Part shown: positions 7,561-61,700 of the stretch, piece after piece | Numbering within the stretch: the first letter of the stretch is position 1 | Layout of the letters: the number at the start of each line of letters is the position of its first letter | NCBI RefSeq assembly: GCF_000302535.1 | Contig: NC_018708.1 | Coordinates: 558,001 to 622,000, forward strand | Reading direction: 5' to 3' | DNA from: Acidovorax sp. KKS102 | GTDB lineage: Bacteria; Pseudomonadota; Gammaproteobacteria; Burkholderiales; Burkholderiaceae_C | Length of the DNA: 64,000 bases | Translations under genes and position numbers: made by a program | The notes under the pieces: model-generated | The model's input: only the letters and a program-made list of their open reading frames with translations | What the model was told of the DNA's origin: nothing | The model's database searches: none

Positions 7561-8048
7561 TCGGCTGTCTCCAAAGAGTTGTTCTGGTTGTGTTCCTTGA
7601 CCTTGCCCAGCAGGCGGTACAAGGTGGCGATGTCGCGCTCGCCCAGCGTGGCGAAGGCTTCGACGATCCATTGCTCGTGCTGGCGCGCCATGGTGTTGAA
7701 CTGCTCGCGGCCCTGGGGTGTGAGGCGCACCAGGTAGGCGCGACGGTCACCTTCCACGTCCATGCGCTCCACCAGCCCTTCGGCCACGAGCTGGTCGGTG
7801 ATGCCGGTGATGTTGCCGCTCGTCACCATCATGCGGCGCGAGAGTTCCTTCATCTTCATGCCGTCCGGCGCGCGCTCCAGCTGTGCCATCAGGTCAAAGC
7901 GCGGCAGCGTGGTGTCGAACTGCGCGCGCAGGTGGCTGCGCACCTGCTTTTCGATGAGCTGGGTGCAGGTGAGCAGGCGCAGCCACAGGCGCAGGGCCTC
8001 GGGGTGTTCGCTGGGGGCGGCGCCGTGCAGGCGGGCTTCGAGGTCCAT
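7557..8048 (-). CDS. MarR family transcriptional regulator of the aromatic-CoA cluster
   Basis: 163 residues with the MarR winged helix: [22 protein letters not shown], then [20 protein letters not shown] as recognition helix and [17 protein letters not shown] as wing. MarR proteins in CoA-dependent aromatic clusters (BadR type) usually sense the aromatic acyl-CoA. The gene lies inside the operon it probably controls, 6 bases after the monooxygenase stop and overlapping the hydratase start. A candidate operator is at 10413-10426. Confidence 0.9.
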
Positions 8049-8054
8049 GGGGGT

Positions 8055-10403
8055 TTACTCGATGGCTGCGGGTTTGCTGGATTCCTGCGCCGGTGCGGCC
8101 ATCTGCTTTTGCTTGGCAATCTCGCGCAGCATCTGGTCGCGGCCGCTGTGGTATTGCACCGGCCAGTCGGTGTGCGCTGCGGCCACGGGGCTCAATTGCG
8201 CGGCGGCGTGCAAAGTCCAGGCCGGGTCGGCCAGGTGGGGGCGGGCGATGGCGCACAGGTCAGCCCGACCGGCTGCAACGATGCTGTTGGCATGGTCGGC
8301 CTCGGTGATCGCGCCCACGGCCATGGTGGCAATACCCACCTCGTTGCGGATGCGGTCGGCAAACGGCGTCTGGTACATGCGGCCGTACACCGGGCGGGAG
8401 TTGCGCGTGGTCTGGCCTGAGGACACGTCGATCAGGTCCGCGCCAGCGGCCTTGAACAGGCGCGCGATGGCAATGGCGTCGTCGGCGGTGTTGCCTTGGC
8501 CTTCCTGCAGCCAGTCGTGCGCCGAGATGCGCACGGAGAGCGGCTTGTCGGCGGGCCACACGGCGCGCAGCGCGGTCAGCACCTCCAGCGGGTAGCGGCA
8601 GCGGTTCTCCAGGCTGCCGCCGTATTCGTCTGTGCGCTGGTTGGTGGCGGGGCTGATGAAGCTGGCCAGCAGGTAGCCGTGTGCGCAGTGCAGCTCCAGC
8701 CAGTCAAAGCCGCAGGCCACGGCGCGGCGGGCGCTGTCCACAAAGGCGGCGGTCACGCGGTCCATGTCGGCATGGATCATGGCGGCAGGCGTCTGGTTCT
8801 GTGCACCATAGGCGATGGGGCTGGCGGCCAGCAGCGGCCAGTTGCCGGTCTCCAGCGGCTCGTCCGTGCCCTCCCACCCCACGCGCGCGGAGCCCTTGGG
8901 GCCGCTGTGGCCCAGCTGCAGGCCGATCTTGGCCGTGCTGCTGCCGTGCACAAAGTTCACGATGCGCGCAAAGGCGGCTTGCTGGGCGTCGTTCCACAGC
9001 CCCGGGCAGGCGGGGGTGATGCGGCCCTCGGACGTGGGGCTGGTCATCTCCACCATCACCAGGGCAGCGCCGCCCAGGGCGCGCGCGCCCAGGTGCACGA
9101 GGTGGAAGTCCTGCGGCACGCCCTCGAGCGCGCTGTAGGTGGCCATGGGCGAGACGACGATGCGGTTCTTGAGCGTGAGGCCTTTGAGCGTGAAAGGCGT
9201 GAGCATGGGCGGAATCGCCGCTTTGCCGCCTGCGAGCCAGGCCTCGTAGCCCTCCAGCCATGCCGCATCGCGCAGCCGCAGGTTCTCGTGGCTGATGCGC
9301 TGGCTGCGCGTGAGCAGCGAATACGTGAACTGCTCGATGGGCATGCCGGTGTAGCGCGCCACGTTTTCAAACCATTCGGTGCTGTTGCGTGCGGCGTTCT
9401 GGATCTTGAGCACCTCCACGCTGCGGCGCGCCTCGTAGTGCTGCAGCACCTCATCGATGGGCAAGCCGGTCGCAAACTCATTGGCCAGGTCGATGGCATC
9501 TTCCAGCGCCAGCTTGGTGCCGCTGCCGATGGAGAAATGCGCTGTGTGCGCGGCATCGCCCATCAGCACGATAGGCACCTGCTTGCCGCCAATCGCTTCG
9601 CGGTGCACCCAGGTGTTGCAGATCACACGCGGAAAACGAATCCAGTTGGCAGAGCCGCGCAGGTGCGTGGCGTTGCTGATGAGGGCGTTGCCGTCCAGGT
9701 ACTTCGCGAAGAGCTTTTCGCAAAACGCAATCGCCTCGGGCTGCTCCATGGCGTCCAGGCCATGGGCCTTCCACACGGCCTCGGGCGTCTCGACGATGAA
9801 GGTGGAGGTGTCGGCGTCGAACTGGTAGGCGTGGGCCTGGAACCAGCCATGCTCAGTCTGTTCGAACGCGAAGGTGAAAGCGTCGAACTTCTTCTTGGTG
9901 CCCAGCCACACGAAGCGGCACTGGCGCAGGTCGATGTCGGGTTGGTAAACGCTGGCGTAACGGGTGCGGATGCGGCTGTTGAGGCCGTCGCTGGCGATGA
10001 CCAGGTCGGCGTGGTACTGCGCGGCGAGCGCCTGGTCGTCGGCCACGTCGGTCTCGAACACCAGCTCCACGCCCAGCTCCAGGCACCGGTCCTGCAGGAT
10101 GTTGAGCAACCGCTTGCGGCCGATGCCGCAAAAGCCGTGGCCGGTGGAGCGCACGCTGCGCCCCTTGAAGAACACCTCGATGTCGTCCCAGTGGTTGAAC
10201 GCATCGCCGATGAGCGCGGCCGTGGGTGCGTCGGCGGCCTGCAGGTTGGCCAGCGTCTGGTCGGACAGCACCACGCCCCAGCCGAAGGTGTCAAACGGTC
10301 GGTTGCGCTCGACCACCGTGATGCGGTGGGCGGGGTTCTGCTGCTTCATCAGCAGGGCGAAATAGAGACCGGCGGGCCCGCCGCCAATGCAGAGGATGTT
10401 CAT
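8055..10403 (-). CDS. 2-aminobenzoyl-CoA monooxygenase/reductase-like (salicylyl-CoA 5-hydroxylase/oxidoreductase)
   Basis: 782 residues made of two enzymes. Residues 1 to about 390 are a FAD aromatic-ring hydroxylase of the salicylyl-CoA 5-hydroxylase type, with [15 protein letters not shown] at the very start and [20 protein letters not shown] as second FAD motif. From about 400 on, an Old Yellow Enzyme-type FMN domain follows ([40 protein letters not shown]). This fusion and length match the anthraniloyl-CoA monooxygenase/reductase of Azoarcus evansii, which hydroxylates and then reduces the ring. The ATG at 10403 is chosen because the FAD strand begins there; upstream sequence in the same frame is not FAD-domain-like. 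First gene of a six-gene minus-strand operon. Confidence 0.88.
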
Positions 10404-50617: not shown

Positions 50618-52207
50618 ATGTTCGACTACATCGTGATCGGCGGCGGCTCGGCAGGCTCCGTGCTGGCTGGCCGCCTGACTGAGAACCCCGCCGTGCGCGT
50701 GTGCCTGCTGGAGGCGGGGCCTGCCGACAACAGCGTGCTCATCCACTGCCCGGCCGGGCTGGCCGTGATGGCCAAGTTCGAGCTGAACGGCTGGGGCTTC
50801 AACACCACACCACAGGCGGCGCTGAACAACCGGCGCGGCTACCAGCCACGCGGCAAGGTGCTGGGGGGCTCCAGCTCGATCAACGCCATGGTCTACATCC
50901 GGGGCCAGCATGCCGACTACGACCACTGGGCCGCGCAGGGCAACCCGGGCTGGGGCTGGGAGGATGTGAAGCCGTACTTTCTGCGCGCCGAGAACAACGA
51001 GCGCGGTGCCAACGACTGGCACGGCCGGGGCGGCCCCTTCAACGTGGCGGACCTGCGTGCGCCCAACCGGTTCAGCCAGTATTTCACCGACGCCGGTGTG
51101 CAGGCCGGGCACCCGCACAACACCGACTTCAATGGCGCCACGCAGGAAGGCGTGGGCCTGTACCAGGTCACGCACAAGAATGGCGAGCGCCACAGCGCGG
51201 CCAAGGGCTACCTCACGCCGCACCTGGCGCGGCCCAACCTGCAGGTCATCACCGGCGCGCATGCCACGCGCATCCTGTTCGACGGCACGCGCGCCGTGGG
51301 TGTGGAATATCGCCAGGGTGGCGCGATCCAGCAGGTGCGCGCCGGGCGCGAGGTTCTGCTGAGTGCGGGCGCGCTGCTGTCGCCGCAGCTGCTGATGCTG
51401 TCGGGCGTGGGGCCTGCCGCGCATTTGCAGCAACACGGCATCCCGGTGCTGCACGACCTGCCCGGCGTGGGCCAGCACCTGCATGACCACCCCGATGTGG
51501 TGCAGGTACTGGACGCCCCTGAGCTCAAGGACCTGTTCGGCCTGTCACTGTCGGGCATGGCGCAGACGCTGCGCGGCATCGTCGAATGGCGCAAGCACCG
51601 CACCGGCATGCTGACCACCAACTTTGCCGAGGCGGGCGGCTTTATCAAGAGCGACCCGTCAGAGGCTGCGCCCGATCTGCAACTGCACTTTGTGATCGGC
51701 AAGCTGGTGGACCACGGCCGCAAGACGGTGTTCGGCCACGGCTACTCGGCCCATGTGTGCCTGCTGCAGCCCAAGAGCCGGGGCTCGGTCACGCTGGCCA
51801 GCCGCGACCCCATGGCCTTGCCACAGGTGGACCCGAACTTCCTGGCCGATCCCGACGACATGGCGCGCATGGTGCGTGGCTTCAAGCGTACGCGCGAGAT
51901 CCTGATGCAACCGGCGCTCGCGAAGTTCGGCGCCAAGGAGCTGGCGGCCTCGGCCAGTGCGCGCACCGACGCGGAGATCGAGCAGTTCATCCGCCAGTAC
52001 GCCGACACCATCTACCACCCCGTGGGCACCTGCCGCATGGGGCCTGGGCCCATGGACGTGGTGGATGCCGAACTGCGCGTGCATGGCCTCGCCGGCCTGC
52101 GTGTGGTGGACGCGTCCATCATGCCGCGCATCGTGAGCGGCAACACCAATGCGCCCACGGTGATGATTGCGGAGAAGGCGGTGGACCTGCTGCGCGCCGC
52201 GCCGTGA
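50618..52207 (+). CDS. GMC-family FAD oxidoreductase (choline dehydrogenase-like)
   Basis: 529 residues. FAD motif YIVIGGGSAGSVLAGRLTEN at the N terminus, GKVLGGSSSINAMVYIRG (GMC signature 1), LLSAGALLSPQLLMLSGVGP (signature 2) and YHPVGTCRMGPG with the catalytic His, DASIMPRIVSGNTNAPTVMI at the end. It oxidises an alcohol; the substrate may be choline, a long-chain or an aromatic alcohol. GGAGGA precedes ATG 50618; the long open frame upstream overlaps the dehydrogenase in antisense and is not coding. Confidence 0.92.
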   Translation: MFDYIVIGGGSAGSVLAGRLTENPAVRVCLLEAGPADNSVLIHCPAGLAVMAKFELNGWGFNTTPQAALNNRRGYQPRGKVLGGSSSINAMVYIRGQHADYDHWAAQGNPGWGWEDVKPYFLRAENNERGANDWHGRGGPFNVADLRAPNRFSQYFTDAGVQAGHPHNTDFNGATQEGVGLYQVTHKNGERHSAAKGYLTPHLARPNLQVITGAHATRILFDGTRAVGVEYRQGGAIQQVRAGREVLLSAGALLSPQLLMLSGVGPAAHLQQHGIPVLHDLPGVGQHLHDHPDVVQVLDAPELKDLFGLSLSGMAQTLRGIVEWRKHRTGMLTTNFAEAGGFIKSDPSEAAPDLQLHFVIGKLVDHGRKTVFGHGYSAHVCLLQPKSRGSVTLASRDPMALPQVDPNFLADPDDMARMVRGFKRTREILMQPALAKFGAKELAASASARTDAEIEQFIRQYADTIYHPVGTCRMGPGPMDVVDAELRVHGLAGLRVVDASIMPRIVSGNTNAPTVMIAEKAVDLLRAAP

Positions 52208-52395
52208 ACGATTTCACGTTTGGCGCCCGGAACGCGATTTTTAAGGTTTTCAAAGGGTCTGTTTAAGGAGTTTTTAACAGGCAAAAACGCGGCGAATTTC
52301 TAGACTTCTCGGCATGGAAGCGGGTGCATGGTGCACCCGGCCCGGCGCCCAAAAAAAGGCGCTGAAAGAGCCCAACGAGGCCATGAAAGAACGTG

Positions 52396-53133
52396 ATGAA
52401 GATTGATGCCCGCGAAATTGCCGCACTGACCCAAGCCCAACCCGCCGCCCCCCGCATGGACATGTACGCCAGCATCCACAAGGCGCTGCGCGCCTTTATG
52501 GCCGACACGCTGCTGGGCCTGGGCCGCATGGATGTGGACGACGACCTGGAGTTTGCCCAGACCTGCGACCGCGTGATGCAGCTGCTGGACCTTTGCCGCG
52601 CGCACCTGCACCACGAGAACCAGTTTGTGCACGCCGCCATGGAGGCGCGCCAGCCCGGCTCCAGCCAGAGCATTGCGGGTGAACATGTGGAGCACGAACA
52701 GGCCATCACGGCCCTGGCCGACGGGGTGAACCACCTGATGGCCTGCGCCAAGCCCGCACGCCCGGCCGCCACCCTGGCCCTGTACCGCCAGCTGGCCCTG
52801 TTTGTGGCGCACAACTTCGAGCACATGCACGAAGAGGAGACGGCCCACAACCGCGTGCTCTGGCAGTGCTACACCGACGCCGAACTGGCGGGCGTGCACG
52901 ACGCGCTGGTGGCCTCGATCCCCCCGCACGAAATGATGGTGGTGGCCCGCTGGATGGTGCCCTACATGTCGCCGGCCGAGCGAACGGCCATGCTGTCGGA
53001 CATGCAGCAGCATGCGCCTGCTCCTGTGTTGGCTGCAGTGCTGGCGCAAGTGCAGCCGCACCTCACGCAGCCCGAATGGACCAAGCTGATGCGCAGCCTG
53101 GGCCTGCCGGTGGTGCCCGGCCTGGTGCATTGA
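52396..53133 (+). CDS. Hemerythrin-like domain protein
   Basis: 245 residues. The first 165 form a four-helix bundle with hemerythrin-type iron ligands: YASIHKALRAF, LHHENQFVHAAME, EHVEHEQAIT and FEHMHEEETAHN (H-x-x-x-E pairs). The C-terminal 80 residues (EMMVVARWMVPYMSPAERTA, APVLAAVLAQVQPHL) form extra helices seen in some bacterial family members. Probably binds a di-iron centre and may sense or handle O2 or NO. It is convergent with the GAF/split-barrel operon, 3 bp between the stops. Confidence 0.85.
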   Translation: MKIDAREIAALTQAQPAAPRMDMYASIHKALRAFMADTLLGLGRMDVDDDLEFAQTCDRVMQLLDLCRAHLHHENQFVHAAMEARQPGSSQSIAGEHVEHEQAITALADGVNHLMACAKPARPAATLALYRQLALFVAHNFEHMHEEETAHNRVLWQCYTDAELAGVHDALVASIPPHEMMVVARWMVPYMSPAERTAMLSDMQQHAPAPVLAAVLAQVQPHLTQPEWTKLMRSLGLPVVPGLVH

Positions 53134-53136
53134 GGT

Positions 53137-54489
53137 TCAAGCGTCTTCCAGCACCACGGGGCGCAGCACGCACAGCCGAAAGCGCCCGCGCCCCGTTTTT
53201 TCGATGTGGATGTGTGGGCAGTTCTCTTGCAGGCGGCGCTGCAGCAACAGCAGGCGGGCCTCCAGGTTGTCGGCCACATCGGGCAGGCGCAGGGCGGGGT
53301 CCAGCCGCAGTTCGCGGTTGGTGAAGTCCACGCGCCCGGTGTGCTGGTGGTCGCGCAGCAGCTTCCACACGATGGCACCCGCCACGCCCTTGATCAGGTA
53401 GTCGTCGTTGATGAACACGCTGTCGTTGGCCGCAAAGTGGCGCACCCGCAGCGCGCTGCCGCTCACCGGCGGGGCCGCTGTCGGAGTAGGCAGCGGCTCG
53501 GGCGCATCGGGCGCGGCCTGCAGCAGATCGATGGCGGCGGCCAGCTGGCCCGCAATGGCCACCAGCAGGTCTTCATCCTCGAAGCCAAAGCGCATGTCCT
53601 CGGGGCTCTCGGCGAACAGCACACCCAGCAGGCGCCCGGCCGACAGCAGCGGAACCGCCACCTGGCTGTGCGGCTCGGGCAGGCCGGGGTAGGGGATGTC
53701 CAGGCCGCGCAACGAGGGTGCATCGGGTGTGGCATGCGCGTCCATGCTTTCGCGGATGGCATGGCTGTACAGGGCGGCGTGCGTCATGTGGCTGATGCGC
53801 ACCGGCGTGCGCTCGCGCGCAGCCATGCCGATCACTCCCTGGCCCAGCCGGATTTCGGAACCCACGCCCGATGTGGCATAGCCGCAGCTGGCCACCGTGT
53901 AGAGCTGCTGGGCGCTGGCGTCCAGCATCAGCACCATGGCGTGCTGGATGCCCAGCTTGTCCTGCAGGCCCTGCAGCGCGCCTTGCAGCAACTCGTCCAG
54001 CCCCGAGCAGCGCGCGATGCTCTCGCTGCACAGACGCAGCGTGTGCAGCAAACCGGAACGCGGCGCCGGTGCCGGCAGGCCTTCGCCCGCCACCGATTCG
54101 ATGCGCTCCACAGCGTAGATGTCGGCCCCTTTGAGTTCAAACACCTCGGCCATGCCCGCATGCGACGCAATGCCCGCCAGCTGCGCGCGCATGCTCTCGA
54201 ACACCGGGCCACTGTCCTCGGTGCGTTCGTACAGCAGGTGCAGGCGGTAGAAGTGGGCGGTGACTGGGTCCAGCACCAACACCGACGCGCGCGGGTTGCG
54301 CAGGATGTTCTGGCGGGTCTTGTTGAAGAACTGGAACGACAGTGCCACATGCGCCGCATCCACATAGACCACCTGCGAGATGTAGGCCACGTTGGGTGTG
54401 CCGTCAGGGTCGCAGGTCGCCATGATGGCGGGAATCGCCCCTTCCAGGCAGGGGCGGATGCTGTGCAGGGACGGCGCTGCGGTGCTCAT
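53137..54489 (-). CDS. Flavin split-barrel, GAF and winged-helix protein
   Basis: 450 residues in three parts. Residues about 10-145: PNPOx-like flavin split barrel (IPAIMATCDPDGTPNVAYIS, LSFQFFNKTRQNILRNPRAS). Residues about 165-330: GAF domain (LGIQHAMVLMLDASAQQLYT, GQGVIGMAARERTPVRISHM, VAVPLLSAGRLLGVLFAESP). The C-terminal 90 residues look like a winged helix (NDDYLIKGVAGAIVWKLLRD, DFTNRELRLDPALRLPDVAD). This order suggests a redox- or ligand-sensing regulator; DNA binding is inference. It overlaps the preceding gene by 4 bp. Confidence 0.72.
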   Translation of the reverse strand: MSTAAPSLHSIRPCLEGAIPAIMATCDPDGTPNVAYISQVVYVDAAHVALSFQFFNKTRQNILRNPRASVLVLDPVTAHFYRLHLLYERTEDSGPVFESMRAQLAGIASHAGMAEVFELKGADIYAVERIESVAGEGLPAPAPRSGLLHTLRLCSESIARCSGLDELLQGALQGLQDKLGIQHAMVLMLDASAQQLYTVASCGYATSGVGSEIRLGQGVIGMAARERTPVRISHMTHAALYSHAIRESMDAHATPDAPSLRGLDIPYPGLPEPHSQVAVPLLSAGRLLGVLFAESPEDMRFGFEDEDLLVAIAGQLAAAIDLLQAAPDAPEPLPTPTAAPPVSGSALRVRHFAANDSVFINDDYLIKGVAGAIVWKLLRDHQHTGRVDFTNRELRLDPALRLPDVADNLEARLLLLQRRLQENCPHIHIEKTGRGRFRLCVLRPVVLEDA

Positions 54490-55001
54490 GGCTGCGGTAC
54501 GGGTGGTGTGGGTGGTGCGGGCGGCGCACACAGCTCCGCGCCTGCGCGTGGGCCTGGGGTCTGGTCGAACGCGCTGGTGGGGGTGAATGTCACTGCCACC
54601 ACATCCTGCAGCGGTGCAGCCAGCATGGCGCCCACATACTGCGGCCCATAACCCACCCGGCCCACCTCCTGCACCATGGACTGGAGGTAGGCCTGCAACA
54701 CCGGCAGGTCGCCATCAGTGGCCGGACGCTGCGTGGCCCGGCGGGCTTTGAGCTGCAGCGTCTGGTGGGTGGACGGCACGCTGAACACCACGGCAATCTC
54801 TCCGGTGTGCGCAATGTCCTGCAGCAACTGTTCGGACTGGCTGCGCCGCAGGTACACCGTGACCTCCCGCCCATCGCTGCTGATGCGACTGCCCACGGCC
54901 CGCATGATGCTCGGCCGCAGGGCCGCATCGCGTGACGCCACGATGGCCGACACGCCCTTGGCCACCATGGCGATATGGCTGGGGCCGAGCAGCACGGTCA
55001 T
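54486..55001 (-). CDS. PNPOx-like flavin split-barrel protein
   Basis: 171 residues. VLLGPSHIAMVAKGVSAIVA and VGSRISSDGREVTVYLRRSQ followed by IAVVFSVPSTHQTLQLKARR resemble the pyridoxamine 5'-phosphate oxidase-like flavin/heme-binding barrel. A Pro/Ala-rich tail ends the protein. Cofactor and substrate are unknown. Its ATG overlaps the ABC-2 permease stop and its stop overlaps the next ATG (ATGA at both ends), so all three genes are very likely one translational unit. Confidence 0.75.
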   Translation of the reverse strand: MTVLLGPSHIAMVAKGVSAIVASRDAALRPSIMRAVGSRISSDGREVTVYLRRSQSEQLLQDIAHTGEIAVVFSVPSTHQTLQLKARRATQRPATDGDLPVLQAYLQSMVQEVGRVGYGPQYVGAMLAAPLQDVVAVTFTPTSAFDQTPGPRAGAELCAPPAPPTPPVPQP

Positions 55002-55849
55002 GCCTTGAAGCGCTTGCGGGTCAGGGCCAGGGCCACCCAGAAGGCCACCACCGTGGTCACCACCAGCACCAGGCCATGGCGCAGGGGGTGAGCGGGCCAC
55101 TGGTCCATGAACAACGGGCGCACCAGCTCGACCGCGTTGGTCAGCGGCAGCCAGTCGGAGATGGCGCGCACGATAGGCGGCAGCTGCTCGCGTGGGAAGA
55201 ACACGCCCGAGAGAAACATCATGGGCGTGAGCACCAGCGTGAAGTAGTAGGTAAAAAAGTCATACCCCTTGGCCAGCGCATTGAAGATGAGCGCGATGCT
55301 GGAAAACATGATGCCCACGAACAGCAGCACCGGCCAGGCCACCAGCAGCTTAGGGCTGTGGCTGATCCCCAGGGCCAGCATCACACCCAGGATGGCCGTC
55401 ACGGTGAAAAGCGCCTTGAACGCTGCCCACAGCATCTCGGCCAGCACCACGTCGTCCAGGCTCACGGGCGCGTTCATGATGCCGTCCCAGGTCTTTTGCA
55501 CATGCATGCGCGAGAAGGCCGAGTACAGCGCTTCAAAGCTGGCCGCGTTCATGGCGCTCATGCAGATGGAGCCGCTGGCCAGGAACAGGATGTAGGGCAC
55601 CTTGGTGTCGCCCGCTGCGCCACCCACACTCACTTGCCCCACCAGGGCCCCCATGCCGTAGCCAAAGGCCACCAGCCACATCAGCGGCTCGGCAATGTTG
55701 CCCACCAGGCTGGGGATGGCCAGCTTGCGCCAGACCAGCAGGTTGCGCAGGAACACGGGCCACCAGCGTACGGACAGGCTGGGCGGGCGCCACACCGACG
55801 GCGGAGGCGGGGCCACAGAGGCCACGGAGGACGGGGTAACGGTTTGCAT
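54998..55849 (-). CDS. ABC-2 type permease (NodJ-like) without adjacent ATPase
   Basis: 283 residues with six transmembrane helices. Family features: LAIPSLVGNIAEPLMWLVAF, YILFLASGSICMSAMNAASF and PMMFLSGVFFPREQLPPIVR. ABC-2 permeases export polysaccharides, lipids or drugs and need a separate ATPase; none is adjacent, since the gene upstream is divergent (PAS kinase) and the next genes encode flavin-barrel proteins. An ATPase elsewhere is presumably used. Confidence 0.88.
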   Translation of the reverse strand: MQTVTPSSVASVAPPPPSVWRPPSLSVRWWPVFLRNLLVWRKLAIPSLVGNIAEPLMWLVAFGYGMGALVGQVSVGGAAGDTKVPYILFLASGSICMSAMNAASFEALYSAFSRMHVQKTWDGIMNAPVSLDDVVLAEMLWAAFKALFTVTAILGVMLALGISHSPKLLVAWPVLLFVGIMFSSIALIFNALAKGYDFFTYYFTLVLTPMMFLSGVFFPREQLPPIVRAISDWLPLTNAVELVRPLFMDQWPAHPLRHGLVLVVTTVVAFWVALALTRKRFKA

Positions 55850-55947: not shown

Positions 55948-57156
55948 ATGCCCACCCATGTCCTGAACCTGCCCGCCGGTGCCAGTGCCCTCTGGCAGAA
56001 CCGCCTGGGGCTGCTGCTGGAGTCCACGGGCGAGGGGGTGTTTGGCATTGATCTGGCGGGCAACTGCGTGTTCATCAACCGGGCGGGCGCGCAGATGCTG
56101 GGCTTTGCGGCCGATGAGGTGATGGGGCGCAACATGCACGCGCTCACCCACCACAGCCACCCCGACGGCAGCCCGTATGCGGACGGCGACTGCCCCATCT
56201 TCAATGCGTTCCGCCAGGGCCTGCCCTGCCGTGTGGACACCGAGGTGTTCTGGCGCCGCGATGGCTCGGCGTTTGCCGTGGAGTATTCGAGCCACCCGAT
56301 TCTGGAAGGTGACCAGGTGCAGGGTGCCGTGATCGCCTTTGTCGACATCACCAGCCGCAAACGCGCCGCCGACGAGCTGCAGCGCGCGCACGATGAGCTG
56401 GCCCGCGCCAACGATGAGTTAGAGCGCCGAGTGGCAGCGCGCACACAAGAGCTGTCGCAGGCGCTGGCGCAGCTGCGCGAGCTGTCGGCCTACTCGGAGC
56501 AGGTGCGCGAAGACGAACGCACCCGCATCGCCCGCGAAGTGCACGACGAGCTGGGCAGCCTGCTGGTGGCGCTGAAGATGGATGTCAACTGGCTGCACAA
56601 GCGCCTGGGCGAGCAAGGCGAGCGCACGCCCGAGGCCGCGGGCGACATGCGCACCCAGATGCGCTGCAAGTGCCAGAACATGAGCCGCCTGATCGAAAAC
56701 GCCGTGGACAACGTGGGCCGCATCATCACCGACCTGCGCCCCAGCATCCTGGACCACCAGGGGCTATGGGCGGCGCTGGAGTGGCAGGCACAGGAGTTCG
56801 TGCAGTCGGCCGAACTGGAGCTGGCGTGGCAGATGGAGGTGCCTGCCACCTTGCACTTGCCCGAGCCTGCAGCCATCGCTGTGTTCCGCATCTTCCAGGA
56901 GATGCTGAGCAATGTGGGCCGCCACGCGCAGGCCAGCGCCATCGACATTGCCATCGACGTGCAGGACGAGATGCTGCAACTGCGCGTGCGCGACAACGGC
57001 GTGGGCGCCACCCGCCAGGCCCTTGAGGCGCCCACCGCCTATGGCGTGATGGGCATGCGCGAGCGGGCACGGCAGCTTGGGGGCCGGTTGAGCATCACCA
57101 GCGAGCCGGGGCAGGGCTCGTGCCTGCAATTGCTGATTCCTCTGGAGCTGTCATGA
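55948..57156 (+). CDS. PAS-domain histidine kinase, NarL-type partner
   Basis: 402 residues, soluble. PAS domain at residues 20-135 (LLESTGEGVFGIDLAGNCVF, EVMGRNMHALTHHSHPDG, YADGDCPIFNAFRQG), then a coiled coil and a HisKA_3 dimerisation domain with the phosphoacceptor His in RTRIAREVHDELGSLLVALK. The ATPase domain follows (FRIFQEMLSNVGRHAQA, LRVRDNGVGATRQAL, GVMGMRERARQLGGRLSI). No membrane segment, so the cue is intracellular. Stop and the next start overlap (ATGA), linking it to the response regulator and, by position, to the cyanate genes. Confidence 0.92.
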   Translation: MPTHVLNLPAGASALWQNRLGLLLESTGEGVFGIDLAGNCVFINRAGAQMLGFAADEVMGRNMHALTHHSHPDGSPYADGDCPIFNAFRQGLPCRVDTEVFWRRDGSAFAVEYSSHPILEGDQVQGAVIAFVDITSRKRAADELQRAHDELARANDELERRVAARTQELSQALAQLRELSAYSEQVREDERTRIAREVHDELGSLLVALKMDVNWLHKRLGEQGERTPEAAGDMRTQMRCKCQNMSRLIENAVDNVGRIITDLRPSILDHQGLWAALEWQAQEFVQSAELELAWQMEVPATLHLPEPAAIAVFRIFQEMLSNVGRHAQASAIDIAIDVQDEMLQLRVRDNGVGATRQALEAPTAYGVMGMRERARQLGGRLSITSEPGQGSCLQLLIPLELS

Positions 57157-57848
57157 ATTCCGTGGTTCGAGTGTTGATCGGTGATGACCACCGCATCGTG
57201 CGGGAGGGGCTCAAGCAGGTGCTGGGCGACCCGGCCAATGGCGTGCCCGAGATCACTGTGGTCGCCGAGGCCACCCAGGGCAACGAGGTGCTGGAGCTGG
57301 TCGCCGCCCTGCAAGGGCCCACGGGAACACCGGGGCTGGACCTGGTGCTGCTGGACATCGCCATGCCGGGCATGGACGGCCTCGAAGTGCTGCAGGCGCT
57401 GCGCAAGGCCTGGCCTGCGTTGCCGGTGCTGATGCTCAGCACCTACCCCGAGCGGCAATACGCGGTGCGCTGCATCCAGATGGGCGCGGCGGGCTACCTG
57501 CACAAAAGCGCCGACCCCGACGACATGGTGGCCGCCGTGCGCAAGGTGGCGGCAGGCGGGCGCTACTTGACCGAGGCCACGGCGCAAGCCCTGGCGGGCG
57601 CCGTGGAGCGCACCGGGGTGGTGCGCGCCGCCCAGCAGGGCGCGCCCGCTGGAGTAGACGCGCTCTCCTATCGAGAGCACCAGGTGTTCCGTCTGCTCAC
57701 GGCCGGGCAGAGCGTGAGCGAAATTGGTGCGCAGCTCAAGCTCGCGCCCAACACGGTGAGCACCTACCGCGCCCGCATCCTCGAAAAGACCGGCGCGCGC
57801 AACGATGTGGAGCTTGCGCTGCTGGCGCGTGGCGCACCGGCAGAGTGA
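57153..57848 (+). CDS. NarL/FixJ-type response regulator
   Basis: 231 residues: receiver domain with DD at 11-12 and phospho-acceptor D68 in LVLLDIAMPGMDGLEVLQAL, a KSADPDDMVAAVRKVAAGG switch region, then a LuxR-type helix-turn-helix (LSYREHQVFRLLTAGQSVSE, IGAQLKLAPNTVSTYRARIL). It is the partner of the preceding PAS kinase and lies 146 bp upstream of the cyanate transporter operon, which it probably controls through the dyads at 57851-57890. Confidence 0.93.
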   Translation: MNSVVRVLIGDDHRIVREGLKQVLGDPANGVPEITVVAEATQGNEVLELVAALQGPTGTPGLDLVLLDIAMPGMDGLEVLQALRKAWPALPVLMLSTYPERQYAVRCIQMGAAGYLHKSADPDDMVAAVRKVAAGGRYLTEATAQALAGAVERTGVVRAAQQGAPAGVDALSYREHQVFRLLTAGQSVSEIGAQLKLAPNTVSTYRARILEKTGARNDVELALLARGAPAE

Positions 57849-57850
57849 AT

Positions 57851-57890
57851 TCGGTGCGTTGCACGACCGATTTGTAGTGCTGGCCCTACA
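57851..57890. promoter_or_regulatory. Two dyads upstream of the cyanate operon
   Basis: TCGGT and ACCGA (57851-57870) enclose GTGC-GTT-GCAC. TGTAG and CTACA (57873-57890) follow at once. Paired dyads immediately 5' of the operon suit a LuxR-type response regulator, and the one encoded just upstream is the obvious candidate. Confidence 0.45.
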
Positions 57891-57945
57891 CGCTGTAGAC
57901 ACCACACCCACGAATTCATGACAGCGGGTCGACACCGGCAAAAAC

Positions 57946-57960
57946 TGGCCCGCGCTTTGC
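57946..57960 (+). promoter_or_regulatory. Possible sigma-54 promoter
   Basis: TGGCCCGCGCTTTGC has GG and GC separated by 10 bases, the spacing of -24/-12 promoters; consensus is TGGCAC-N5-TTGC, so one base differs in the first half. It would place the start about 23 bases before the ATG at 57995. Nitrogen-source genes are often sigma-54 dependent. Confidence 0.4.
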
Positions 57961-57994
57961 GTAACGCCTGGCACCAACTTCTTCGAGGTGTGCC

Positions 57995-59401
57995 ATGTCC
58001 GAATTCTTCTCGCCCTACGATGCCGACCGCCCGTTGATGCTGAAATGCAGCTGTGGCCGCGACCACACGGTGGCCGACCACCATGCCGAGGTCTCGGCCG
58101 ATGCCGCCGCAGCCACCCTTCGCCAGCGCAGCGAGACCCGCGAGTTCGAGCTCTACAACAACGAGTTCATCGAGGCCACGCTGGTCAAGGCGCTGTTTCC
58201 GCAAGACGCAGTGCGCCGCCGCTTCATCAAGGCCGTGGGCAAGGGCACAGCCATGGCGGCCATCGCCAGCGTGTTGCCGGTGGCTAGCCTGCAGGCCATG
58301 GCGCAAGAGAAGCAGGGCGCACTGGAGAAGACCAATCTCAAGATCGGCTTCATTCCGATCACCTGCGCTACGCCGCTGATCATGGCCCACCCGCTGGGCT
58401 TCTACAGCAAGCAGGGCCTGAATGTCGAAGTCACCAAGACGGCAGGTTGGGCGCTGATCCGCGACAAGATGATCAACAAGGAGTACGACGCCACGCACTT
58501 CCTGAGCCCGATGCCGCTGGCGATTTCCATGGGCCTGGGCTCCAACGCCACCCCCATGAATGTGGCCACCATCCAGAACGTGAACGGCCAGGCCATCACG
58601 CTCAGCCTCAAGCACAAGGACAACCGCGACCCGAAGAACTGGAAGGGCTTCAAGTTTGCGATCCCCTTCGAGTACAGCATGCACAACTTCCTGCTGCGCT
58701 ACTACTTGGCCGAGGGGGGCCTGAACCCCGACACCGATGTGCAGCTGCGCGTGGTGCCACCGGCCGAGATGGTGGCCAACCTGCGCGCGGGCAATATCGA
58801 CGGCTTCCTGGGCCCCGATCCGTTCAACCAGCGCGCCGTGTTCGAGGAGGTCGGCTTCATCCACCTGCTCACCAAGGACCTGTGGAACGGCCACCCCTGC
58901 TGCGCCTTCGGCACCAGCACCGAGTTCATCCAGAAGAACCCCAACACCTTTGCCGCGCTGTATCGCGCGGTGCTCACCTCGGCCGCCATGGCGCGCGACC
59001 CCAAGAACCGCGAGCTGATCGCCAAGGTGATTGCGCCCCAGGCCTACCTGAACCAGCCCGAGGCCGTGATCAATCAGGTGCTCACCGGCAAGTTCGCCGA
59101 TGGGCTGGGCAAGATCCAGAACGTGCCCGACCGCGCCGACTTCGACCCCATGCCCTGGCAAAGCATGGCCGTGTGGATGCTCACGCAGATGCAGCGCTGG
59201 GGCTACATCAAGGGCGATGTGGACTACAAGCAGATTGCCGAAAAGGTGTTCCTCATCACCGACGCGAAAAAGCAGATGAAGGCGCTGGAACAGAAGGTGC
59301 CCGACGGCGCGTACCCCAAGTTCAAGATCATGGGTCGCGAGTTCGATGCGGCGAAGGCGGCCGAGTACGCCAAGAGCTTCCCCATCCGCAAGGCGGCATG
59401 A
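57995..59401 (+). CDS. NrtA/CmpA-type ABC transporter substrate-binding protein (cyanate/nitrate)
   Basis: 468 residues. The Tat-like signal RRRFIKAVGKGTAMAAIASV starts only near residue 73, after an unusual N-terminal extension with LKCSCGRDHTVADHH. The mature part is NrtA-like: LKIGFIPITCATPLIMAHPL, KFAIPFEYSMHNFLLRYYLA, NIDGFLGPDPFNQRAVFEEV and GHPCCAFGTSTEFIQKNPN. Cyanase in the same operon makes cyanate the most likely ligand, with nitrate or bicarbonate as alternatives. Possible sigma-54 promoter upstream. Confidence 0.88.
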   Translation: MSEFFSPYDADRPLMLKCSCGRDHTVADHHAEVSADAAAATLRQRSETREFELYNNEFIEATLVKALFPQDAVRRRFIKAVGKGTAMAAIASVLPVASLQAMAQEKQGALEKTNLKIGFIPITCATPLIMAHPLGFYSKQGLNVEVTKTAGWALIRDKMINKEYDATHFLSPMPLAISMGLGSNATPMNVATIQNVNGQAITLSLKHKDNRDPKNWKGFKFAIPFEYSMHNFLLRYYLAEGGLNPDTDVQLRVVPPAEMVANLRAGNIDGFLGPDPFNQRAVFEEVGFIHLLTKDLWNGHPCCAFGTSTEFIQKNPNTFAALYRAVLTSAAMARDPKNRELIAKVIAPQAYLNQPEAVINQVLTGKFADGLGKIQNVPDRADFDPMPWQSMAVWMLTQMQRWGYIKGDVDYKQIAEKVFLITDAKKQMKALEQKVPDGAYPKFKIMGREFDAAKAAEYAKSFPIRKAA

Positions 59402-59402
59402 C

Positions 59403-60269
59403 ATGACTGCCGCCAAGAACCTCAACCTGCGCGCGGGCCTGCTGTCCGTGCTCATCTTTCTCACGCTGCTGGGCATCTGGTACGTGGCCACGTCGTCCTC
59501 GGGCGCTGGCGGCGGCACGGCGGGCATGACGGCCGAGCAGATCGAGTACGCCAAGATGATGGGCAAGGACCCGGGCGCATCCAAGAGCGGTGGCTTTCCC
59601 ACGCTGGGTGCGATGGGCAGCACCGTGTGGGGCCATCTGTCCAACCCGTTCTACGACAACGGACCCAACGACAAGGGCATCGCCATCCAGCTGGCGCACT
59701 CGCTGGGCCGCGTGGCTCTGGGCTTTGGCCTGGCCTGTCTGGTGGCGATCCCGCTCGGTTTCATCATCGGCATGTCGCCGCTGCTGCGCCGCGCGTTCGA
59801 CCCCTTCATCCAGGTGCTCAAGCCCATCAGCCCGCTGGCGTGGATGCCGCTCGCGCTCTACACCATCAAGGACTCATCCATCTCGGGCATCTTCGTGATC
59901 TTCATCTGCTCGGTGTGGCCCATGCTGGTGAACACGGCGTTTGGCGTGGCATCGGTCAAGCGCGAGTGGCTCAACGTGTCGGCCACGCTGCAGGTCAACC
60001 CGCTGCGCAAGGCCTTCCTGGTGATCTTGCCCGCCGCAGCGCCCACCATCCTCACGGGCATGCGCATCAGCATGGGCATCGCCTGGCTGGTGATCGTGGC
60101 GGCCGAGATGCTGGTGGGCGGCACGGGGATTGGCTACTTCGTTTGGAACGAGTGGAACAACCTGTCGCTCACCAACGTGATCTTTGCCATCCTGGTGATT
60201 GGCGTGGTGGGCATGTTGCTCGACCTGGCCTTCGGCCAGCTGCAGAAGGTGGTGACCTATGTGGAGTGA
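59403..60269 (+). CDS. NrtB/CynB-type ABC transporter permease
   Basis: 288 residues. TM1 is LLSVLIFLTLLGIWYVATSS; a periplasmic loop with a poorly conserved glycine-rich insert follows. The permease core has LGRVALGFGLACLVAIPLGF, PISPLAWMPLALYTIKDSSI and the EAA loop ATLQVNPLRKAFLVILPAAA. One base separates it from the receptor stop; it overlaps the ATPase gene by 11 bp. Confidence 0.92.
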   Translation: MTAAKNLNLRAGLLSVLIFLTLLGIWYVATSSSGAGGGTAGMTAEQIEYAKMMGKDPGASKSGGFPTLGAMGSTVWGHLSNPFYDNGPNDKGIAIQLAHSLGRVALGFGLACLVAIPLGFIIGMSPLLRRAFDPFIQVLKPISPLAWMPLALYTIKDSSISGIFVIFICSVWPMLVNTAFGVASVKREWLNVSATLQVNPLRKAFLVILPAAAPTILTGMRISMGIAWLVIVAAEMLVGGTGIGYFVWNEWNNLSLTNVIFAILVIGVVGMLLDLAFGQLQKVVTYVE

Positions 60270-61143
60270 TGTTGCCCAGCGCCCGGCTGTTCCAGCCCCT
60301 CTTGCCACTGACGCCACCGACGCCCCGCAACGAAAGGCCTCTGCCGTGACCCAAGGCTTCCTCCAGATCGACCGGCTGAGCAAAGCCTTTGTGCCCGCCA
60401 AGCCCGTGTTTGCTGATGTGTCGTTCACGCTCGACAAGGGCGAGTTCGTCTGCATCATCGGCCACTCGGGCTGTGGCAAGACCACCATCCTGAACGTGCT
60501 GGCGGGGCTCGATACTGCCACCTCGGGCACCGTCATCATGGACGGACGCGAAGTGGCCGGGCCCAGCCTGGACCGGGGCGTGGTGTTTCAGAGCCATGCG
60601 CTTATGCCCTGGCTCACGGTGCGCCAGAACATCGCGTTTGCCGTGAAGTCGCGCTGGCCCGACTGGAAGAAGGCCCAGGTGGATGCGCATGTGGAGAAGT
60701 TCGTGGCGCTGGTGGGCCTGAGCCCTGCCATCGACAAGAAGCCATCGCAGCTGTCGGGCGGCATGAAGCAGCGCGTGGGCATTGCGCGCGCGTTCTCCAT
60801 CCAGCCCAAGATGCTGCTGTTGGATGAGCCCTTTGGCGCACTCGATGCGCTCACGCGCGGCACCATCCAGGACGAGCTGATGACCATCGTGCGCCAGACG
60901 CAGCAGACGGTCTTCATGATCACGCACGATGTGGACGAAGCCATTTTGCTGGCTGACCGCATCCTGCTGATGAGCAACGGCAACGAGACGCCCGAGGGCT
61001 ATCGCCCCGGTGGCATCGCCGAGGTGGTGGTGAACCCGCTGCCGCGCGAACGCACGCGCACCAGCCTGCACCACCTGGACGGCTACTACGCGCTGCGCAA
61101 CCACATCGTGGACTTCCTGGTCACCCGAGCCAAAGCCCACTGA
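60259..61143 (+). CDS. NrtD/CynD-type ABC transporter ATPase
   Basis: 294 residues: Walker A IIGHSGCGKTTILN, VVFQSHALMPWLTVRQN (Q-loop), signature QLSGGMKQRVGIARAF, Walker B KMLLLDEPFGALDAL and H-loop MITHDVDEAIL. The C-terminal tail ends LRNHIVDFLVTRAKAH, without the regulatory domain of NrtC. The ATG 60259 overlaps nrtB-like; a GTG at 60346-60348 before TQGFLQIDRL is an alternative start. Confidence 0.92.
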   Translation: MWSDVAQRPAVPAPLATDATDAPQRKASAVTQGFLQIDRLSKAFVPAKPVFADVSFTLDKGEFVCIIGHSGCGKTTILNVLAGLDTATSGTVIMDGREVAGPSLDRGVVFQSHALMPWLTVRQNIAFAVKSRWPDWKKAQVDAHVEKFVALVGLSPAIDKKPSQLSGGMKQRVGIARAFSIQPKMLLLDEPFGALDALTRGTIQDELMTIVRQTQQTVFMITHDVDEAILLADRILLMSNGNETPEGYRPGGIAEVVVNPLPRERTRTSLHHLDGYYALRNHIVDFLVTRAKAH

Positions 61144-61256
61144 TTTATTGAATAACCAAGCCCTGACTTGTCACCCCTTGTGGGTGGCAGGGACGGCTGC
61201 ACCCTGAAGTTTCTGTTCCCCGTTCCAAAACCCATCCAACCGAAGGAGCCATCACC

Positions 61257-61700
61257 ATGAACCGCAACGACGTTACCGAAAAGATCATCAGCACCAAGGT
61301 CGCCAAGGGCCTGCAATGGGAGGCCATTGCCAAGAAGGTCGGCCAGTCCAAGGAATGGACCACCGCCCTGTGCCTGGGGCAGATGACCGCCACGCCCGAG
61401 CAGGCCAAGATCGTGGGCAAGATTTTTGGCCTCACGGCCGAGGAGCAGAAGTGGCTGCAAGTGGTGCCTTACAAGGGCTCGCTGCCCACGCCCGTGCCCA
61501 CGGACCCGCTGATCTACCGCTGGTACGAGGTGGTGAGCGTGTACGGCACCACCATCAAGGAACTGATCCACGAAGAGTTTGGCGACGGCATCATGAGCGC
61601 CATCGACTTCAGCATGGACATACAGCGCGAGGCCAACCCCAATGGCGACCGTGTCAACGTAGTGTTGTCCGGCAAGTTCCTGCCCTACAAGCAGTACTGA
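61257..61700 (+). CDS. cynS: Cyanate hydratase (cyanase)
   Basis: 147 residues, slightly shorter than E. coli CynS. The catalytic triad is present: R88 and E91 in IYRWYEVVSVYG, and S114 in GIMSAIDFSMDI, at the same spacing as Arg96, Glu99 and Ser122 of E. coli. It converts cyanate and bicarbonate to ammonia and carbon dioxide. AAGGAG lies 6 bases upstream of the ATG. No carbonic anhydrase (CynT) gene is next to it. Confidence 0.96.
   Translation: MNRNDVTEKIISTKVAKGLQWEAIAKKVGQSKEWTTALCLGQMTATPEQAKIVGKIFGLTAEEQKWLQVVPYKGSLPTPVPTDPLIYRWYEVVSVYGTTIKELIHEEFGDGIMSAIDFSMDIQREANPNGDRVNVVLSGKFLPYKQY

Follow-up and report, generated by a model that had tools for sequence, protein, structure and literature searches.

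The gene pair B-C of Acidovorax sp. KKS102 probably encodes a one-component regulator that acts in the manner of PhoB/OmpR and drives HEM, a hemerythrin-like gene facing it, from a box of tandem direct repeats. The window, by which we mean the whole 64,000-nucleotide stretch of DNA analyzed (NC_018708.1, positions 558,001 to 622,000), contains the following features, given in window coordinates.

52240-52283, plus strand: the box, made up of four 11-bp direct repeats that precede HEM, a putative C site
52301-52306, plus strand: TAGACT, a -10-like hexamer 17 bp after the box
52396-53133, plus strand: HEM, a hemerythrin-like diiron protein and the proposed C target (GTG at 52393 is also a possible start)
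53137-54489, minus strand: C, 450 aa, with a split barrel, a GAF domain, and a winged-helix-like C-terminus
54486-55001, minus strand: B, 171 aa, a small split-barrel protein
54998-55849, minus strand: a NodJ-type ABC-2 permease, 283 aa, accessory (TIGR01291, 217 bits)

The conserved gene set

A sequence-only reading of this DNA had proposed that the permease, B, and C are joined by ATGA overlaps and that a hemerythrin-like gene ends 3 bp away on the opposite strand. Both statements agree with the coordinates: the permease and B overlap at 54998-55001, B and C overlap at 54486-54489, and the HEM stop at 53133 leaves a 3-bp gap to the end of C at 53137. The neighborhood search with C that the same reading had called for found B, C, and HEM conserved together, but it did not place the permease in the core, as a NodJ match lies near C in only 18 of 60 loci.

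Loci containing C were collected from named contigs (29 loci), from a class sample (10 of 369 genomes, one partial), and from a family sample (35 of 200 genomes by reading, one partial); a phylum sample yielded the C-terminal domain in 9 of 398 genomes, five of them in other classes, and C was also found on plasmids (20 records), including those of Azospirillum and Sinorhizobium. The closest relatives of the window C are from Acidovorax and are 98-99% identical to it. Seventy-eight loci (71 plus L187-L193) were reduced to 60 groups, the 71 having been collapsed at 90% C identity; this tally omits L031 (broken C), L032 (a fragment), L179 (domain only), and the plasmid loci L244-L246. Clustering of neighboring ORFs mixed true genes with antisense frames and was used for dereplication only.

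B lies beside C in 59 of the 60 dereplicated loci, the exception (L178) being cut by a contig end, and the 4-nt overlap between them is present in 48 of the 59. HEM accompanies the pair in 41 of 60 groups, always on the opposite strand (41/41) and within 500 bp in 38, and a small c-type cytochrome gene is found in 11 of 60, one locus having both. The core is thus B-C with HEM or a small cytochrome c gene nearby. In the family sample, by hand counts, HEM was present in 31 of 35 genomes with C versus 19 of 165 without (Fisher p 4e-19 over the 200 genomes, each taken as independent); HEM can therefore exist without C.

Domains of B, C, and HEM

Two split barrels and a GAF domain had been proposed for these proteins, and each was supported. 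In C, Pfam places PNPOx_N at residues 11-117 and GAF_2 at 163-321, both over cut-off, with the N-terminus scoring 42 bits against PF01243 (cut-off 28.1), and the domain limits are approximately 8-133 for the split barrel, 147-325 for the GAF domain, and 346-450 for the winged-helix-like domain (DNA 53140-53454). Among 53 sequences, conservation is 3.13 bits per column in the barrel, 3.10 in the C-terminal unit, and 2.68 in the GAF domain. The AF2 model of C has a mean pLDDT of 73.5 and was built from a 16-row alignment. Its GAF domain finds its best structure match in PtsP (3trc; Z 21.8, rmsd 2.2 over 155 residues), and PtsP 3ci6 and NifA 9qq6 are further structure and sequence matches; these are the best matches of the domain, and C differs from PtsP and NifA in architecture. 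GAF matches also filled the Foldseek and VIA lists for whole C, the latter covering mainly residues 39-366.

The C barrel gives split hints as to its cofactor: PF01243 favors a flavin family, and the best PDB profile match is the heme-binding HutZ, a weak one (E 0.0018). B has no family match in Pfam or NCBIfam at E 1 and no convincing sequence relative in the PDB (best E 0.98); its AF2 model (mean pLDDT 91.8) has a split-barrel fold whose nearest structural match is HupZ (7kpz; Z 13.5, rmsd 2.9 over 122 residues), and B may serve as a partner barrel to C. Both proteins thus recall HutZ/HupZ and PNPOx-like split barrels, B through its fold and C through its N-terminal matches, but the C barrel is fused to a GAF and a winged-helix-like domain, and a second, separate barrel is present.

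The winged-helix-like C-terminus that had been proposed for C is upheld as a predicted topology, that of the AF2 model. Its order there is strand-strand-strand-helix-strand-helix-helix-strand-strand-strand, which is the order of PhoB/OmpR winged helices (Trans_reg_C, PF00486), and the domain was called PhoB/OmpR-like on this basis before the repeats described below were discovered. No Pfam match for the domain was found in C or in 18 C-terminal domains, and hhalign comparison with 25 Trans_reg_C (OmpR-type) domains of the same genome, using 18 and 63 sequences, gave no signal above column shuffles. The PDB held no convincing sequence relative (best E 0.22). Because there is no detectable sequence relation to Trans_reg_C, we describe C only as working like PhoB/OmpR. 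C also differs from these regulators in having no Response_reg match, and so no receiver domain, its input domains being instead a split barrel and a GAF domain. One family genome (G509) carries a free-standing version of the C-terminal domain (L179, up to position 7773), with neither B nor the remainder of C; the 15-kb stretch around it holds no box.

In HEM, residues H28, H70xxxE74, H97 (and H100), and H143xxxE147 are invariant in 14 of 14 aligned proteins and fit the H-HxxxE-H-HxxxE diiron pattern of hemerythrin-like domains, as given in PMC12022348. PF01814 matches 11 of the 14 alignment members when E values up to 10 are admitted (best 3.3e-8), the window HEM having no match, and a HEM profile finds FBXL5 (E 0.0011). 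HEM therefore resembles the hemerythrin-like domains of FBXL5 and BRUTUS in its diiron pattern, but unlike them it is a stand-alone bacterial protein that has an extra C-terminal region and no ligase part, and its gene carries a box tied to B-C.

Among the annotated plasmid records inspected, B is listed as "hypothetical protein" and C as "GAF domain-containing protein." No description of the B-C-HEM set or of the box was found in the literature searched, in which subscription journals were thinly covered, making this weak evidence of absence; the sole match for the barrel/GAF/hemerythrin set or its promoter was PMC5069765, on OsdR/DevR.

The repeat box and its association with C

At C loci, the region upstream of HEM carries four direct repeats with an 11-bp period and a unit of about yTTArGnAnTT, in which A at position 4 is present in 98% and G at position 6 in 70%. 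A TAGACT-like hexamer lies 17 bp past the box in 35 of 38 HEM boxes and is exactly TAGACT in 28. With a matrix trained on 140 units from family HEM promoters, the window included, the window box scores 35.6, as compared to a maximum of 13.5 in 1000 shuffles, and block-shuffled versions of 30 loci score at most 3.7. A scan of both strands of all collected C loci, with redundant ones retained (2.6 million positions), gave roughly one site scoring at least 18 per locus. Fifty of the 60 groups have such a box. It precedes HEM in 38 of the 41 groups with that gene and the cytochrome gene in 7 of the 10 that have a cytochrome and no HEM, and it is also found in 5 of the 9 with neither; the non-HEM sites all lay outside the training set of the matrix. 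Among these last five, at L168 the box precedes a small gene with sub-threshold COX1/DUF2871 matches, at L188 a gene for a membrane protein that resembles that of L168 and has no Pfam match, and at L171 and L174 apparent lipoprotein genes. At L163, which has no HEM gene, a box is found directly behind C (8845-8888); it is perhaps the remnant of a lost HEM.

The ten groups in which no box reached the threshold are L079, L080, L164, L172, L173, L176, L187, L190, L191, and L192. Among these, L164 has a site of 17.0 before its cytochrome gene, L176 likewise scores 17.0, and L190, L191, and L192 have paired repeats recognizable by eye or as two-unit matches. In alphaproteobacterial relatives, the site often takes the form of two repeat pairs 9-10 bp apart; such paired sites precede HEM in L193 and in Sinorhizobium (L245) and a flavin monooxygenase gene in L191, and L192 and L246 have weaker sites, upstream of a monooxygenase-like and a cupin gene, respectively.

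Other elements were noted around these promoters. A CRP-like palindrome, CGTGAACGATTTCACG, lies at 52203-52218 of the window, about 21 bp upstream of the box, and overlaps the stop of the upstream oxidoreductase gene; the GTGAA-n4-TTCAC dyad is present in 7 of 41 HEM upstream regions. The presumed HEM leader contains a stem-loop region (GGGTGCA-tgg-TGCACCC, 52321-52339; z -2.34 for the 90-nt leader), and other loci show inverted repeats of a similar kind. Upstream of B, inverted repeats did not rise above shuffles (3 versus a shuffle maximum of 4), so there is no sign of autoregulation.

The box co-occurs with C. Of 19 family genomes with HEM and no C (hand count), 18 were fetched, one of them being G509 with its free-standing domain, and none of the 20 HEM genes fetched from them is preceded by a box scoring at least 18, as compared to 38 of 41 groups with C (Fisher p 2.8e-13, genes taken as independent). 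In one close relative without C (L194 in G371), the HEM gene keeps TTCCTAGACT but only a decayed box, scoring 6.6, as if C had been lost. The 229 class genomes yielded 11 strong cytochrome matches. Six of the 7 found in genomes with C have the box, as compared to 0 of 4 in genomes without C (one with only 119 bp of upstream sequence). Five of the six boxed cytochromes belong to loci already counted above; the sixth (L256, G036:C99; score 30.3) is a second cytochrome copy on a different contig from B-C, so the regulator may act beyond its neighbor. A third copy in the same genome (L257), interrupted by a stop, has no box.

Searched as a pattern with up to 3 mismatches, which is also the number that the window site itself needs, the box gave a single match in the 5.2-Mb genome of the host strain, at the window box, and a reversed-pattern control gave none. 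Over the 200 family genomes, 32 had a match, which counting by hand divides into 16 of the 35 with C and 16 of the 165 without. Among the 16 with C, the match is at the C locus in 14 and beside HEM in 13; none of the 16 C-lacking genomes with a pattern match has a HEM match. Because the reversed pattern also matched in 21 of 200, the pattern alone is not specific, and single matches elsewhere mean little.

Proposed mechanism and alternatives

Loci that bear the box have the B-C protein pair in common, and it is simplest to suppose that the box is read by C together with B. We propose that input would enter through the split barrels of B and C, carrying flavin or heme, and through C's GAF domain; a redox-type signal is suggested by the kind of barrels and targets involved. 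C would then bind the tandem 11-bp repeats with its C-terminal domain, much as a PhoB/OmpR winged helix does. PhoB/OmpR-type domains bind direct repeats of the 11-bp kind, and the arrangement here, with tandem 11-bp direct repeats upstream of a -10 and tied to C in 50 of 60 groups, is that expected of an operator for this class. Bound C would presumably activate a promoter that has a TAGACT-like -10 and no evident -35; we infer activation because the repeats occupy the place of the -35 and stand at a fixed 17 bp from the hexamer. The predicted targets are HEM, facing C, as the one clear target in this genome, and in relatives the small cytochrome c gene, a flavin monooxygenase gene, or another neighbor. 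B-C appears to be a one-component regulator whose domain combination, operator, and targets are all new.

Alternatively, one could envision that the box is bound by a different regulator, such as an unlinked PhoB/OmpR-type response regulator, and that B-C, an enzyme or sensor, simply accompanies HEM. The host genome has 27 OmpR-type DNA-binding domain matches, domains of this type bind direct repeats, and C has no sequence relation to them, all of which would suit such an arrangement. However, the box precedes genes as unlike as those for HEM, cytochrome c, flavin monooxygenase, and others, which share B-C as a neighbor, and none of the 20 HEM genes and 4 cytochrome genes tested from genomes without C carries it, so we consider this explanation unlikely. 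We find it harder still to credit that the repeats are phased A/T tracts that bend DNA or an UP element contacted by the RNA polymerase alpha subunit. Their richness in T and A, their helical phasing, and their place just before a -10-like hexamer would fit this, but they have a defined unit core (the near-invariant A and the frequent G described above) with an 11-bp period, the alphaproteobacterial sites are arranged as two pairs 9-10 bp apart, and the 20 HEM genes fetched from C-lacking genomes do not have them.

The sequence-only reading had suggested that the permease, B, and C make up a membrane system that responds to redox state, O2, or NO and whose output is unknown. The ATGA overlaps among the three genes, found here and in close Acidovorax, are consistent with this, as is the occurrence of NodJ near C in 18 of 60 and of NodI in 15 of 60 dereplicated loci; however, these same frequencies make the NodIJ pair accessory, NodJ being absent from the fetched stretch in 42 of 60 groups, and no box scoring at least 18 lies before nodI or nodJ among the collected C loci. 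The permease does exceed the NodJ cut-off (TIGR01291, 217 versus 206.65 bits) and, as had been remarked, has no adjoining ATPase gene of its type. The best NodI-like gene of the genome is 21 kb away on the same strand (G000:634524-635432) and, at 367.6 bits, is below the nodI cut-off of 424, and the two other matches to the permease in the genome are weak and not near that gene. Gene order in relatives accounts for the seemingly missing ATPase: NodI immediately precedes the permease in L015, L016 (Polaromonas), L018, L025, and L024 (a partial case at the end of its contig), and in four loci from Acidovorax (L006, L012, L014, and L027) it lies upstream at a distance of 2.8-5.0 kb. The locus therefore resembles a NodIJ ABC-2 exporter in its permease and in the order of genes in several relatives, but differs in the distance and score of its own NodI-like gene. 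Between the permease and the displaced NodI, at 55948-61700 of the window, are divergent genes for a histidine kinase and a LuxR-type response regulator, followed by genes that by reading putatively encode substrate-binding, permease, and ATPase proteins and a cyanase. We thus conclude that the NodIJ transporter, present upstream of B-C in some of the Comamonadaceae, is not needed, the permease being mostly a bystander. A membrane system of the kind proposed is accordingly most improbable; the link to redox proteins has held, and the output is no longer unknown because the conserved promoter box points to HEM.

Returning to B-C as a regulator of HEM, we favor, with somewhat less assurance, the broader view that the pair is the founding member of a one-component regulator family that spans alpha-, beta-, and gammaproteobacteria and in which a heme or flavin barrel pair and a GAF domain would control a new type of winged helix that reads tandem TTAAG/TTAGG 11-bp repeats, each copy being dedicated to a neighboring redox protein (a diiron hemerythrin, a cytochrome c, or a flavin monooxygenase). 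If the regulatory role is correct, it would give the conserved pair B-C a function, a DNA site, and target genes, and would add an undescribed domain to the DNA-binding repertoire. Because in this genome a dedicated sensor appears to have HEM as its one clear target, it would also offer a direct handle on the role of bacterial hemerythrin-like proteins, and, should the family view hold, HEM would be a redox or oxygen effector under the control of its own private sensor.
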